A program made the translations under genes and the position numbers. Source: Flammeovirga kamogawensis (GTDB taxonomy: Bacteria > Bacteroidota > Bacteroidia > Cytophagales > Flammeovirgaceae). From it: a DNA stretch of 64,000 nucleotides. Positions 3,790 through 19,114 of this stretch are shown one piece after another. The notes under the pieces were generated by a model. That model worked only from the letters and a program-made list of their open reading frames with translations, was not told the DNA's origin and did not search any database. Numbering within the stretch: position 1 is the first letter of the stretch; each line of letters opens with the position of its first letter. Where the stretch lies: positions 868,001-932,000 of the forward strand of contig NZ_CP076128.1 of assembly GCF_018736065.1 (NCBI RefSeq), given 5' to 3'.

Positions 3790-4392
3790 ATGAGGAAGAT
3801 TTTTTTAACCCTTGGACTACTTTTAAGTTCTTATATAGTTTTTGGTCAAGGTGTTATGATTGCCGCTAAAGTTGGTACTAATATCTCAAAAATAAGAACC
3901 AATCGTACAAACGATTTTTCTTATAAACCAAATCTTACCTTTGGTGGTGTTGTAGAAGCTGCTACAAGTGATGTTTTTTCACTTCAAGCAGAATGTTTGT
4001 ACAGCATGATCAAATCAAAATCTATGGGTACAACTGTTAGTTTAAACTATGTTGACATACCATTATTAGCAAAATTTACTGTTGGAAAAAAAAATAGATT
4101 CTTTTTTAATCTTGGTCCAATGGTTAGTGTATTAGCTAAAGCAAAAGAAAATGGACCAACAAATATTATTGATGGCTCACTTTCTCCATCAGAAAGTACA
4201 AATGATAGAAATGTAAATCGTTATTTAAATGATTCTAATATTTCTTTAGTATTTGGAATTGGAGCTATGGTAGATAATATCATGATAGATTTTAGGTACA
4301 TAGCTGGTTTATCTGACATTACAAGAGTTAGTGGAGACGATTTATCAATCAGCAGATTTGATGTAACATTAGCGTATGCATTAGTATTCTAA
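3790..4392 (+). CDS. Small outer-membrane beta-barrel protein (porin-like, PorT/OMP_b-brl type)
   Basis: This 200-residue protein has a clear signal peptide (MRKIFLTLGLLLSSYIVFGQ, cleavage after GQ). It then shows alternating hydrophobic strands ending in an aromatic/aliphatic C-terminus (DVTLAYALVF), typical of small Bacteroidetes outer-membrane beta-barrels. Motifs such as KVGTNISKI and GFG/GIGAMVDNIMIDFRY fit the 'outer membrane protein beta-barrel domain' families. It follows the T9SS cargo gene by about 185 bp. Such pairs sometimes resemble PorP/SprF-cargo pairs, but this protein is much shorter than PorP/SprF (about 300 residues), so I do not call it that. Substrate and exact role are unknown. 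Confidence 0.8.
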   Translation: MRKIFLTLGLLLSSYIVFGQGVMIAAKVGTNISKIRTNRTNDFSYKPNLTFGGVVEAATSDVFSLQAECLYSMIKSKSMGTTVSLNYVDIPLLAKFTVGKKNRFFFNLGPMVSVLAKAKENGPTNIIDGSLSPSESTNDRNVNRYLNDSNISLVFGIGAMVDNIMIDFRYIAGLSDITRVSGDDLSISRFDVTLAYALVF

Positions 4393-9304: not shown

Positions 9305-10054
9305 GTGAACAAACGTTGGAGCAAAGAGGTAAAAGGATTACTTCAAAAGAAAAAAAGAAAAGAATCTAACCGTTTTATTGTTGAAGGACAAAAAAACATA
9401 CAGGAGTTAATCAATTCTAATTTAGAAATTGACGCACTTTTTTACACTGAAAAATTTAAAGAAGTACTTCCTCCTTCTGTTCTGAATAAAATACCTGTTT
9501 CTGATATAACTACTCCTGTACTTTTAAAACAGAATGGCTCACTTCAAACCAACGATAGCGGTTTAGCAATTGCAAAAATGCCTTCTTATTCTCTACCATC
9601 TATTGAGACCATTTCTAATTTTTCTTTAGCACTTGACGATGTTAGAGACCCAGGCAACCTTGGGACAATTTTAAGAATTGCAGATTGGTATGGTATCAGT
9701 GATATATTCTTATCAAAAAATTGTACAGATGCTTTTGCTCCAAAAGTAATTGCTTCTACTATGGGTGCCTTTACTAGAATTAAATGTCATGTTGTAGACC
9801 TTCCAGAAATTTTATCCAATTACAAAAAGAATGGTGTACAATTAATTGGTGCCGATATGGACGGCGAAGACATTCACAATTTCACTCCAGAAAATAAAAG
9901 TATTATGGTAATGGGGAGTGAATCACATGGTATTAGCCAAGAAATTCATTCTATACTATCTGCTAAAATTACGATACCTCGTTACGGTGACTCAGAATCT
10001 TTAAATGTAGCTGTAGCCACTGCAATAATTTGCGACAACATCAAACGTGTTTGA
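9305..10054 (+). CDS. SpoU/TrmH-family RNA 2'-O-methyltransferase
   Basis: This is a SAM-dependent ribose methyltransferase of the SPOUT class acting on rRNA or tRNA. The N-terminal substrate-binding region (1-95) has the L30e-like pattern KESNRFIVEGQKNIQEL. The three knot motifs follow: DDVRDPGNLGTILRIAD (111-127, catalytic Arg/Asn region), MGSESHGIS (203-211), and IPRYGDSESLNVAVA (225-238). At 249 residues it is closest to RlmB/TsnR-like enzymes, and the exact target nucleotide is not determinable. It starts with GTG 13 bases after the serine hydrolase, so it is probably the last gene of that operon. Confidence 0.92.
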   Translation: MNKRWSKEVKGLLQKKKRKESNRFIVEGQKNIQELINSNLEIDALFYTEKFKEVLPPSVLNKIPVSDITTPVLLKQNGSLQTNDSGLAIAKMPSYSLPSIETISNFSLALDDVRDPGNLGTILRIADWYGISDIFLSKNCTDAFAPKVIASTMGAFTRIKCHVVDLPEILSNYKKNGVQLIGADMDGEDIHNFTPENKSIMVMGSESHGISQEIHSILSAKITIPRYGDSESLNVAVATAIICDNIKRV

Positions 10055-10135
10055 CATTTATTGTGAAGTTAAAATGAATCATTTCTACTTAAAATAATGT
10101 TTATGTAATTGAGTATCACAAATAATTACATAGAT

Positions 10136-10936
10136 ATGAATATCAAACACTTTATTACGATTACTAATTTTCGTCCTCAAAAGACATCAAATACAATTTT
10201 ATTTGCACCCACTGGTAATAACAATATCGCCACATGGATAAAATATGATGAAAATTTAGAATGGTTAGATAAAGTTATTGCAGCCAATAATGATGTTTGT
10301 ATTTATACTGATGGGTTAACACCTCTAGAACATGTTGCAGAGTTAGTCCTATCAGATGAAATAATTATGGATAAATTTATTTGGAAAGATACGGTAGCTT
10401 ATTCAAAAAATGAGTTACTAAATCTTGTCAATTTAAATGATAGTATCTCATGGCATGATATGGCCTTTGCTGATAGGCTAATATTTGATGATAATTTCCC
10501 TAGCAACTATTATTTTGCGAAAAAAGTCAACCCTTCTGCTCTTTCTTACCCAAAGAATATTAATTCAATTTTAAATAAAAATAAAGACGATATTTATTTT
10601 GAACGAGTAAATAAAGATATCAATTTATTTATAATTCCATTCCAATCAGATAATCTGGACAATATGTTATTCTACATGAATAATTTCTTGATTAATTCTA
10701 AAAACGACATTTTAAAATTCGAAGGGAAATGTATAATTGATGATCACCAAATATCAATTAAAAAAATTGGGAATAAATTAATTCATAATCAAGACTTAAA
10801 AATGAATCATTCTGGTAGTTTTATTTTTGGTGTTACACACCTTAATAAAAATGAAGTCGAGAGTCAGATGAAATTAATTAATCAAGATTTAAGTGATGCT
10901 CAAGCACATATTGAAGATATAATTGCTTTTCTTTAG
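10136..10936 (+). CDS. CobW/COG0523-like protein lacking the GTPase motifs (degenerate homologue)
   Basis: No domain is obvious at first sight, but the order of motifs follows the CobW/YjiA metallochaperone GTPase family. DVCIYTDGLTPLEHVAELVL (residues 53-72) resembles the vviEtSGladP...va motif. ADRLIFDDN (112-120) sits where ADxivlNKxD would be, VNPSA (131-135) matches the LNPxA that follows it, and ILKFEGKCII (192-201) plus SGSFIFGVTHLNKNEVESQM (226-245) resemble the CobW C-terminal domain. The P-loop GxxGxGKT, the CxCC metal motif and NKxD are absent, so GTP hydrolysis is unlikely. The start is the ATG at 10136; a TTG nine codons earlier is less likely. Homology is inferred from motif order, without an alignment search. 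Confidence 0.5.
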   Translation: MNIKHFITITNFRPQKTSNTILFAPTGNNNIATWIKYDENLEWLDKVIAANNDVCIYTDGLTPLEHVAELVLSDEIIMDKFIWKDTVAYSKNELLNLVNLNDSISWHDMAFADRLIFDDNFPSNYYFAKKVNPSALSYPKNINSILNKNKDDIYFERVNKDINLFIIPFQSDNLDNMLFYMNNFLINSKNDILKFEGKCIIDDHQISIKKIGNKLIHNQDLKMNHSGSFIFGVTHLNKNEVESQMKLINQDLSDAQAHIEDIIAFL

Positions 10937-11026: not shown

Positions 11027-11833
11027 ATGATTACAGAATCATCATCAAATTATAATGATCTTGAAAAGATGAGTGTAAATGAACTTTTACATAATATCAA
11101 TAAAGAAGATCAATCCGTACCATTAGCAATCCAAAAAGCAATTCCTCAAATCGAAGCATTAGTTAATGCTATTGTTCCAAGAATGAAGAAAGGTGGTAAA
11201 CTATTTTATATAGGCGCTGGTACTAGCGGAAGACTTGGCGTTGTTGACGCTTCAGAATGTCCTCCAACATTTGGCGTTCCTTTCGATTTAGTTGTAGGTA
11301 TTATTGCAGGAGGTGATGGAGCAATAAGAAAAGCCGTAGAACACGCTGAAGATGACAACAAACAAGCTTGGATAGACCTAAAAAATGAGAATATTGGAGA
11401 GAATGATTCTCTAATAGGTATAGCTGCCTCTGGTAGAACACCATATGTTATTGGTGGAATGGAAGAAGCAAACAAAAATAATATCCTTACTGGCTGTATT
11501 GTATGTAATCCTAATAGCAAAATGGCTGAAGTTGCCCAATTTGCAGTAGAACCCATTGTTGGTCCTGAATTTGTAACAGGAAGTACAAGAATGAAAGCAG
11601 GTACAGCTCAAAAATTAGCCTTAAATATGATATCAACTTCCATAATGATCCAGCTTGGAAAAGTTAAAGGGAATAAAATGGTTGATATGCAGCTTACAAA
11701 TCATAAATTAGAAGAAAGAGCTATCCGAATGGTTATGGATGAAATACCTGTGGATAGAGCTATTGCTGAAAGCTTATTAGCTGAACATAAATCTGTTAGA
11801 GGAGCAACAGATGCATATAACAACCGCACTTAA
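11027..11833 (+). CDS. murQ: N-acetylmuramic acid 6-phosphate etherase
   Basis: Cleaves the lactyl ether of MurNAc-6-phosphate to give GlcNAc-6-phosphate and D-lactate in peptidoglycan recycling. It is a SIS-fold protein of 268 residues, slightly shorter than the E. coli enzyme. The signature GAGTSGRLGVVDASECPP spans residues 63-80. Glu77 and Glu108 (AVEHAEDD) correspond in spacing to the two catalytic glutamates of E. coli MurQ (Glu83, Glu114). GPEFVTGSTRMKAGTAQK is also typical. No MurP transporter or MurNAc kinase is adjacent. A 10-bp inverted repeat lies immediately upstream. Confidence 0.95.
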   Translation: MITESSSNYNDLEKMSVNELLHNINKEDQSVPLAIQKAIPQIEALVNAIVPRMKKGGKLFYIGAGTSGRLGVVDASECPPTFGVPFDLVVGIIAGGDGAIRKAVEHAEDDNKQAWIDLKNENIGENDSLIGIAASGRTPYVIGGMEEANKNNILTGCIVCNPNSKMAEVAQFAVEPIVGPEFVTGSTRMKAGTAQKLALNMISTSIMIQLGKVKGNKMVDMQLTNHKLEERAIRMVMDEIPVDRAIAESLLAEHKSVRGATDAYNNRT

Positions 11834-17870: not shown

Positions 17871-17926
17871 AAAGCTCATAAGTTATGTATATTTGAAAAC
17901 ACAAAAAAACATTTCTTATGAGCTTT
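17871..17926. promoter_or_regulatory. 12-bp perfect inverted repeat around the lipase promoter and start codon
   Basis: AAAGCTCATAAG (17871-17882) is the exact reverse complement of CTTATGAGCTTT (17915-17926). The right arm contains the ATG (17918) and the -7 element lies in the 32-base spacer. It is a possible operator or structure controlling the downstream gene. Confidence 0.45.
17888..17895 (+). promoter_or_regulatory. Promoter -7 element for the lipase-like gene
   Basis: TATATTTG matches TAnnTTTG, 22 bases before the start codon. Confidence 0.6.
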
Positions 17927-19114
17927 ATACTTAAAAGACTATTTCTTCTTTTACCCATCATTTTATTTTATAGTTGCTCCACAGATAATTCTACTCCTGA
18001 ACCTATTTCTACTCCTGTTGCAGGAGACTTAATCTCTTATGAAGTAAAAAATGAATATGCCGCCGAAGATCTCAAATTCCTTGCTTCAATTGGAGGATTT
18101 GACAGAGCTGTTCCTTTAATTAAAAATGATATCACCACATATAAAGTTACCTATTTAACATCAGATAAATATGGGCAACTTATTGAAGCTTCTGGCATTG
18201 TTTCATTTCCTGAAACAGCCCCTACTAAAGATTGGATTTTACTAAGTAGAGGTACTATAATTGCTTCAAATGAAGCTCCGTCAGTAACAAATTTACCAAG
18301 CTATGAAATTGGTGCATCTTTAGGTTATGCAATCATAGTCCCTGATTTAATTGGTTTCGGTGATTCAGAAGAGATATTCCAATATTATTTCATAAAAGAT
18401 AAATCTACAGAAACATCAATTAATCTTACTTTAGCTGCTAAAACTCTAGCAAATAAATTAGAAATTGACACTTCTGATAATTACTTTTTAGCTGGGTATT
18501 CTCAAGGAGGTTTTTCATCTTTAAGTATTGCAGAAAAATTATTAGAATCAGAAATTGAACAAATAAATGTTTTGGGATGCTTTACAGGAGCAGGAGGTTA
18601 TAATCTACCTCTAGTTATGAATGAAATTTTAAAGAATGAACAATATGAATCCCCTGCTTTTTTGGCTTTAATAGTTCTTTCCTATTATGAATACTACGAT
18701 TTTGACTTTGAATTAAGTGATATATTTAAGAGTCCTTACCATAATACAATACAAGAATTACTTTCAGGAAAACTAAACACTCCACAGGTTAATAATCAAC
18801 TCCCTAAAACTTTAAATACACTTTTTACTAACACATTTCTTACTGACTTAAAGAATGAGGAAAATTCAAATCCGATTTATCAAAAACTACAAACTAATTC
18901 AGTTTCAATATTTGAAACTCATTTCCCAATCTATTTCTACCATTCCCCTTTTGATGAAATCATTCCCTATTCAAGCTCTGAAAATATATCAGATAATTTC
19001 TTGAAAAGTAATTCAAATATTTTCTTTGAAGAAATTGAAGGAACCTCACATAGTAATGCAGCACTTTATATGTTAATCAAATCTTTAGAACAAATTTCAA
19101 TGATTAATAATTAG
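17918..19114 (+). CDS. Alpha/beta-hydrolase lipoprotein (secretory-lipase-like)
   Basis: The 398-residue protein has a lipoprotein signal (LLPIILFYSC, Cys20). The nucleophile elbow is GYSQGG with Ser195, the likely acid is Asp346 (HSPFDEIIPY), and the likely base is His378 (EGTSHSNA). The N-terminal half contains VTYLTSDKYGQLIEASGIVSFP, and the layout resembles the LIP / secretory lipase group and bacterial esterases with an inserted lid between residues 225 and 320. It probably acts on esters at the cell surface or periplasm. It has its own promoter-like box inside a 12-bp inverted repeat, and no neighbouring gene suggests a pathway. Confidence 0.8.
   Translation: MSFILKRLFLLLPIILFYSCSTDNSTPEPISTPVAGDLISYEVKNEYAAEDLKFLASIGGFDRAVPLIKNDITTYKVTYLTSDKYGQLIEASGIVSFPETAPTKDWILLSRGTIIASNEAPSVTNLPSYEIGASLGYAIIVPDLIGFGDSEEIFQYYFIKDKSTETSINLTLAAKTLANKLEIDTSDNYFLAGYSQGGFSSLSIAEKLLESEIEQINVLGCFTGAGGYNLPLVMNEILKNEQYESPAFLALIVLSYYEYYDFDFELSDIFKSPYHNTIQELLSGKLNTPQVNNQLPKTLNTLFTNTFLTDLKNEENSNPIYQKLQTNSVSIFETHFPIYFYHSPFDEIIPYSSSENISDNFLKSNSNIFFEEIEGTSHSNAALYMLIKSLEQISMINN

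Follow-up and report, generated by a model that had tools for sequence, protein, structure and literature searches.

According to a 2009 paper, all COG0523 members have a CXCC motif (PMC2770081). The same paper presents Rv0106 of Mycobacterium tuberculosis, a Zur-repressed, COG0523-like protein in which both GTPase motifs are missing, CXSC is found in place of CXCC, and GTPase activity was suggested to be absent. CBP1, an algal CobW/WW factor, appears in another report as a regulator that has kept its GTPase motifs (PMC12891040). In other GTPase families, the pseudo-GTPases described in three papers, including p190RhoGAP domains, degenerate septins, and CENP-M, keep the G-domain fold, have lost the nucleotide motifs, and serve as interaction or assembly modules (PMC5593906, PMC10731463, PMC10211241).

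We analyzed a window of 64,000 nucleotides from Flammeovirga kamogawensis, which contains a gene for a protein that is very probably a pseudo-GTPase derived from a YjiA-like COG0523 metallochaperone. The protein resembles the COG0523/G3E GTPase YjiA of Escherichia coli (PDB entries 1NIJ, 4IXM, and 4IXN) in the order of two domains, in the course of the chain in the predicted model, and in the presence of a CobW_C-like domain. It differs, with the intact relatives as the yardstick, in the loss of the P-loop, CxCC, ETTG, and NKxD motifs, in the absence of the stretch following the P-loop, and in a length that is ~50 residues shorter. Similarity to COG0523 and the lack of both GTPase motifs are shared with Rv0106, but the latter, by its description, is still recognized by homology, keeps CXSC, and is regulated by Zur, whereas the Flammeovirga protein has no CxxC-type site and is recognized by no family model (PMC2770081). 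The protein is a COG0523-family pseudo-GTPase more eroded than Rv0106 as described in print. Unlike the eukaryotic pseudo-GTPases listed above, it is bacterial and belongs to the G3E/COG0523 family. The first-pass annotation had called it the best candidate for an undescribed protein type, which is too strong in view of the Rv0106 precedent, although no description of the Flammeovirga family itself was found among the matches listed in the open-licence literature.

Conservation, selection, and upstream region

The open reading frame of 266 codons extends from an ATG at 10136 to a stop codon at 10934-10936 (Table 1). The start ATG is present at the matching place in all nine orthologues, and a 9-codon extension with a TTG start is common only to G002 among them. 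A protein search of 58 genomes detected the gene in 9 of 9 Flammeovirga genomes and in none of the 49 others. With a profile built from the nine orthologues, 27 of 390 genomes of the order gave matches at an E value of 0.1 or better; the nine Flammeovirga matches were full length and the other 18 were short and partial. A scan of genome contigs identified five loci, all in Flammeovirga.

The protein is 46 to 49% identical to its orthologues in seven more distant species. The neighbors located between window positions 3790 and 17848 display 63 to 91% identity, indicating that the pseudo-COG0523 gene changes faster, and the gene at 17918-19114 is still more divergent (40 to 46% identity in three genomes). 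The ratio of dN to dS was estimated in eight of the nine genomes, G003 being left out, with five pairs for the pseudo-COG0523 gene, the MurQ gene, and a pyruvate-kinase-like gene, four for the TrmH gene, and one for the intact paralogue. Values of 0.034 to 0.122 were obtained for the pseudo-COG0523 gene. The intact paralogue had a value of 0.072, and the ranges were 0.021 to 0.062 for MurQ and 0.031 to 0.077 for TrmH; several of the dS values were saturated. The pseudo-COG0523 gene is under purifying selection, and its low dN/dS values indicate a maintained protein rather than a decaying pseudogene.

The palindrome AAATGAATCATTT, located upstream from the gene, occurs 27 times in the nine genomes, including 6 times before a pseudo-COG0523 gene, and the backward-pattern control gave 10 occurrences. 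By eye, its other places are inside or before unrelated genes, and we therefore dropped it as a regulon-wide site. Promoter-like sites were not in excess (10 found versus 9.9 expected), and the sole terminator-like match sits inside the pseudo-COG0523 gene.

Table 1. Features of the pseudo-COG0523 locus (window positions; residue numbers refer to the 266-residue protein)
Feature	Position	Strand	Basis and remarks
TrmH/SpoU-type RNA methyltransferase (presumed from sequence), upstream neighbor	9305..10054	+	Conserved; synteny anchor
AAATGAATCATTT, 6-1-6 palindrome, possible operator or promoter part	10072..10084	+	Exact in 6/9 orthologues, a single mismatch in 3/9
Pseudo-COG0523 gene, 266 aa, degenerate YjiA/CobW GTPase relative	10136..10936	+	ORF and start, 9/9 genomes, hhalign, fold
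Residues 5-10, HFITIT, strand at the beta-1 place, which leads into the P-loop in intact proteins	10148..10165	+	Both models, alignment A2; without sequence-profile support of its own
Residues 11-32, place of the P-loop, helix alpha-1, and strand beta-2	10166..10231	+	Element names inferred from the alignment
Residues 23-27, FAPTG, low-confidence loop	within 10166..10231	+	Invariant 9/9; alignment, second model
Residues 53-72, at the Walker B/switch II position, with loss of ETTG	10292..10351	+	Alignment A2, both models
Residues 81-90, strand containing WKDTVAY (83-89, invariant); the strand opposite it in intact proteins ends in (V/I)DA-like residues	10376..10405	+	Alignment, second model
Residues 110-116, AFADRLI, running into the strand on which intact proteins have NKxD; motif absent here	10463..10483	+	Invariant 9/9; alignment
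Residues 131-135, VNPSA, opposite LNPxA	10526..10540	+	Alignment A2
Residues 154-250, CobW_C-like C-terminal domain	10595..10885	+	Models, YjiA alignments; weak profile match to the YjiA C terminus (E 0.37)
MurQ (N-acetylmuramic acid 6-phosphate etherase; presumed from sequence), downstream neighbor	11027..11833	+	9/9 genomes

Kinship with YjiA-like COG0523 proteins

For comparison with intact proteins, 30 loci (L063 to L092) were fetched and 22 new proteins were kept, all of them complete, longer than 270 residues, and carrying the P-loop and GCxCC, with repeats removed. The resulting YjiA-like profile contained 25 intact proteins, 19 of which entered alignments A2 and A3; A2 comprises 30 proteins, namely, the nine orthologues, two degenerate relatives described below, and these 19 intact proteins.

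Alignment of the nine-orthologue profile with the 25-protein profile by hhalign gave a score of 45.6 (P 1e-5) over 189 colinear columns, corresponding to residues 63-251 of the pseudo-COG0523 protein. None of 300 column-shuffled controls reached this score (best, 25.7), and 12 families encoded by adjacent genes scored at most 27.1 against the intact COG0523 profile. Residues 64-266 scored 42.8, and the pieces 58-150 and 150-266 scored 31.6 and 24.2, respectively, both without shuffles. Lower scores were obtained with the other COG0523 groups of these genomes (20.6 for the long form and 14.7 for CobW proper), indicating that it is the YjiA-like group to which the protein is related. Addition of the degenerate relative from genus g5 to the orthologue profile raised the score to 54.8 (best of 150 shuffles, 36.2), and further addition of the relative from genus g3 gave 70.3, a value without shuffle control that is helped by the g3 relative's own score of 56.5. 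Among the sequence data, the profile-profile comparison is what argues most strongly for COG0523 kinship, and the common descent that it suggests is visible in the sequence profiles for residues 63-251 only. The proposal that the whole protein is CobW-like was thus borne out for this range; residues 1-62 are without sequence support for CobW, and the assignment there comes from the models and from gene order.

Family-model searches did not detect this kinship. Searches of Pfam, NCBIfam, and PDB sequences (phmmer) with the pseudo-COG0523 protein gave chance matches only, and neither Pfam cobW nor CobW_C was reported for any of the nine members at E values up to 10. When profile A3 of the intact proteins was run blind with HMMER against the six reading frames of 18 genomes, the gene was not reported even at an E value of 10. 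With the nine-orthologue profile as the query against PDB sequences, the first match was YjiA, with an E value of 0.37; it covered 49 residues within the C-terminal domain, in the right place. Against single sequences (673 distinct open reading frames of the fetched loci), the best hhalign score of an intact COG0523 protein was 30.7; several HslV sequences (up to 40.5) scored higher, as did two other unrelated reading frames picked by earlier searches (36.8 and 34.6). Aligned one by one with two intact COG0523 proteins, the nine orthologues gave mostly noise (z 0.5 to 4.1).

Several library matches were rejected as short and biologically senseless chance matches: DsrD (E 0.09), phospho-furanose lactonase (E 0.084), and IL15 (4 of 9 members; best E, 0.0026), as well as DUF4342, ribosomal S3, and PRK09133 for the orthologues and MGAT2 and an EF-hand-like family for the g5 relative. 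Seven weak-match loci from the searches of the 390 genomes with the orthologue profile and the g5 relative were inspected; the large open reading frame at the best weak match (L093, E 1e-4) gave nothing in hhalign and was discarded.

A first structural model, computed from the nine orthologues only, had a pLDDT of 66 and a pTM of 0.52. In a Foldseek search of the whole PDB, E. coli YjiA occupied ranks 1 to 3 (E 9.9e-7 to 1.5e-6), and rank 4 followed at 3.8e-3. The global TM-score with YjiA was only 0.30, and VIA-align gave YjiA a Z score of 6.9 over 184 residues, below unrelated structures at 7.6; folds absent from the VIA-align results were not counted as excluded. This predicted likeness to YjiA is independent of the COG0523 assumption. 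A second model, computed from 30 sequences (the orthologues, the two degenerate relatives, and 19 intact relatives), reached a pLDDT of 79.8 and a pTM of 0.77. YjiA was again the top Foldseek match (E 1.1e-10; TM-score, 0.51 to 0.55), with a Z score of 14.4 over 222 residues (rmsd, 4.0), the next unrelated structure having a Z score of 7.9. The fold of the second model is not independent evidence, because its alignment holds intact COG0523 proteins. A G domain followed by a CobW_C fold is seen in the predicted models, with the same reservation for the second. Structure prediction with fold search and profile-profile comparison, both proposed in the first-pass annotation, led to YjiA and COG0523, respectively. 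Neither of the two outcomes that it had named as grounds against its proposal, an unrelated fold in a profile search or a predicted structure lacking the CobW beta-sheet order, was encountered.

In the alignment with intact COG0523 proteins, the four elements on which the CobW assignment had originally been based, namely, the E-S/T-GxxxP switch region, the ADxxxxN position, VNPSA, and the CobW_C-like C terminus, are found in the claimed order. The stretch DVCIYTDGLTPLEHVAELVL aligns opposite the Walker B/switch II stretch, which reads HLIIETTGIAEPDGVAAAF in L044, AFADRLIF is opposite TFADYLVF of L044, and VNPSA is opposite LNPxA. As also claimed for the window protein, the P-loop (G-x4-GK[ST]) and the CxCC metal motif are absent from all nine orthologues, which also have a gap at the position of NKxD; the switch II ETTG is likewise absent from the nine in the alignment of 30 proteins. 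Strings of the [NST]KxD type occur elsewhere in the sequence of three of the nine, and NKxD itself deviates in some proteins with an intact P-loop (NKSS in L043 and NKSA in L078). That the 19 intact proteins carry the P-loop and CxCC is a contrast by choice and not a finding, because they were picked by these motifs. The nine orthologues also have a deletion where, in intact proteins, a helix and a strand follow the P-loop. Of the intact proteins, 18 or all 19 agree at 42 columns; the nine orthologues all retain 4 of these columns, 3 of which sit in the loosely aligned N terminus. N132 is the sole invariant column across the 11 degenerate and 19 intact proteins. The orthologues conserve instead FAPTG, WKDTVAY, AFADRLI, and KKVNPxALS. 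They contain 4 to 11 histidines per member and a single invariant cysteine.

Gene order, degenerate relatives, and intact paralogues

The order TrmH-pseudo-COG0523-MurQ is conserved in 9 of 9 Flammeovirga genomes, as is the longer order of what we take to be a serine-hydrolase-like gene, the TrmH-type methyltransferase gene, the pseudo-COG0523 gene, the MurQ gene, and a DEAD-box helicase gene. TrmH matches were obtained in 17 of 18 genomes of the family, with the locus after TrmH from eight non-Flammeovirga genomes. In G012 (genus g5), TrmH is directly followed by an intact COG0523 gene and then by a gene for a 282-residue motif-less protein. The latter matched the window protein (z 4.9) and the G003 orthologue (z 6.3), the two tried of the nine, above all 300 shuffles; alone against COG0523, it scored 19.6, below significance (150 shuffles reach 27.0). 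We accepted this relative on the grounds of where its gene lies and of its similarity to these two orthologues. In G010 (genus g3), TrmH is followed by a gene for a 336-residue motif-less protein and by a DEAD helicase gene, whose product is the best match there of the window helicase (60% identity). This g3 relative (L167:7982-8989), which has no Pfam match, is a degenerate COG0523 protein from end to end, with a score of 56.5 over 296 columns from residue 1 (150 shuffles reach 26.8). It lacks the P-loop and CxCC and contains an NKGD string away from the NKxD position. When the orthologues were compared directly by hhalign with the relative from g5 (16.7 to 17.4) or that from g3 (13.9 to 15.2), the scores remained below significance. 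In the 390 genomes, the only other match of the g3 relative was an intact COG0523 protein (E 8.9e-4), and two of the five weak matches of the g5 relative were inspected and yielded nothing. Inspection by eye of the region after TrmH revealed no COG0523-like gene in G011, G017, G009, G013, and G014, and the sequence of G015 ends after TrmH. The simplest reading is that a YjiA-like COG0523 copy located behind TrmH gave rise to the pseudo-COG0523 gene, with loss of the catalytic motifs once or more than once.

The search for orthologues and intact paralogues suggested by the first-pass annotation showed that all 11 genomes with a degenerate copy (the nine Flammeovirga genomes, G010, and G012) also encode an intact YjiA-like COG0523 protein. 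In G009, G015, G011, G013, and G017, the intact YjiA-like protein was present and no degenerate one was found. The presumed paralogue in the F. kamogawensis genome is a protein of 318 residues (C1:1083748-1084701; L168:5745-6701) with all motifs and with Pfam matches to cobW (E 6.2e-50) and CobW_C (E 3.5e-17). Nine of the intact Flammeovirga and G010 proteins were included in the tree and formed one clade (99/97). In 4 of 4 Flammeovirga loci read and in G010 (L168, L169, L170, L171, and L173), the intact gene adjoins three genes that we take to be rpsF, rpsR, and rplI. In some bacteria, bS18, the product of rpsR, exists in zinc-binding and zinc-free forms, making a link to ribosomal zinc conceivable. 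In some other genomes, the YjiA-like group is found beside a gene for a long COG0523 protein and genes that, to our eye, resemble those for MerC or a Fur-type regulator, a setting that fits zinc handling.

A separate observation concerns the intact COG0523 protein encoded behind TrmH in genus g5 (L166:5733-6689). It has NKSS for NKxD and a long branch (1.38), and it may be on the way to losing base specificity.

Proposed function of the pseudo-COG0523 protein

Since the protein has neither a nucleotide nor a metal site, the COG0523 cycle as known cannot run; with all known GTP- and metal-binding parts lost, it is probably a binding partner or adaptor and not an enzyme. Taken as a whole, a pseudo-GTPase working as a nucleotide-independent adaptor is the explanation that we moderately favor, the adaptor or regulator mechanism being its tentative part. 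The ancestor would have been a YjiA-like COG0523 zinc metallochaperone, whose two-domain shape (G domain and CobW_C) appears to be kept. Lost from it are the P-loop together with helix alpha-1, the metal-binding CxCC, ETTG of switch II, and NKxD for base recognition, and binding of GTP or metal as in the ancestor seems, from the sequence, hardly possible. The protein-binding surfaces of the ancestor, namely, CobW_C and a face made up of WKDTVAY, AFADRLI, and KKVNP, may have been retained. The protein could then act as a nucleotide-independent adaptor or brake, either docking on the co-occurring intact COG0523 protein or holding the same client protein. The computed basis of this explanation is conservation, purifying selection, the predicted fold, motif loss, and the position after TrmH shared with intact and motif-less proteins. 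The initial suggestion for this gene, a relative without hydrolysing activity and with a possible role in regulation, scaffolding, or competition, is still the best functional guess.

The main alternative to the adaptor or brake is a fully new role, which we regard as possible but rather unlikely. According to this alternative, the COG0523 descendant does not interact with the intact protein, and conserved loops, FAPTG among them, make up a new site for binding a ligand or nucleic acid. The invariance of FAPTG in the nine orthologues at the former nucleotide site is in line with this, as are the near neighbors, which presumably are housekeeping rather than metal genes, and the upstream region, in which the palindrome search found no metal-regulon site. 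The arrangement in G012, where the motif-less relative lies directly beside the intact COG0523 gene, fits a partner role better, and every genome in which a degenerate copy was seen also had an intact one.

The N-terminal region bears on a second alternative. Residues 41-67 (window 10256-10336) resemble the C-terminal end of HslV, with a score of 33.0 over 27 columns, a likeness that is unexplained. It emerged while weak matches of the 390-genome search were being checked, whereas COG0523 was the prior hypothesis. The HslV profile was built from 28 of 30 HslV loci, the other 2 being without the GADGQ string used as the filter. HslV was discarded as the origin of the whole protein, since the likeness is confined to residues 41-67 and a whole-protein match was not obtained. 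It was retained as a rival for the N terminus, where a fusion or replacement, improbable in our view, would have left only the C-terminal two-thirds of COG0523 origin and the first ~60 residues of another. Residues 1-80 alone score 31.9 against HslV versus 15.5 against COG0523, the score of 42.8 against COG0523 being obtained with residues 64-266, and HslV models of NCBIfam were reported with 3 of the 30 A2 proteins (best E, 0.028) and with two of five orthologues taken singly (E 0.03 to 0.09). However, the match, picked out by a scan of 390 genomes, covers 27 columns and falls from 40 with a single sequence to 33 with the 28-row profile, the second model lays residues from 2 onward along the G domain of YjiA, and the motif-less g3 relative aligns with COG0523 from residue 1.

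It is quite improbable that the protein is a strongly diverged active GTPase or metallochaperone that still binds nucleotide or metal via migrated residues. Pseudo-enzymes with migrated residues are known (PMC10211241), and histidines are available in each member, but neither the P-loop, nor CxCC, nor NKxD at its place is present in any orthologue, one cysteine is invariant, and the stretch after the P-loop is deleted. Chance resemblance of an unrelated protein, to which the failure of every library HMM and of the blind profile search might point, is very improbable in view of the shuffle and neighbor controls, the independent Foldseek result, and the gene position shared with intact and degenerate COG0523 genes.

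Returning to the pseudo-GTPase adaptor, a broader version would be a G3E pseudo-GTPase lineage that arose in three genera of one family from a duplicated zinc metallochaperone downstream of TrmH and became an obligate cofactor or brake of the intact COG0523 protein, in an undescribed chaperone/pseudo-chaperone pair; we consider this version doubtful. The tandem of intact and degenerate COG0523 genes in the sister genus g5 makes the partner role directly testable. Since the pseudo-COG0523 protein is invisible to Pfam, NCBIfam, and a HMMER profile of its intact relatives, similar pseudo-GTPases may sit elsewhere as "hypothetical proteins." How COG0523 proteins recognize and serve their clients is largely open, and a homologue that is under purifying selection, with its shape kept and its GTP and metal sites gone, separates the protein-binding part of the family from its chemistry.
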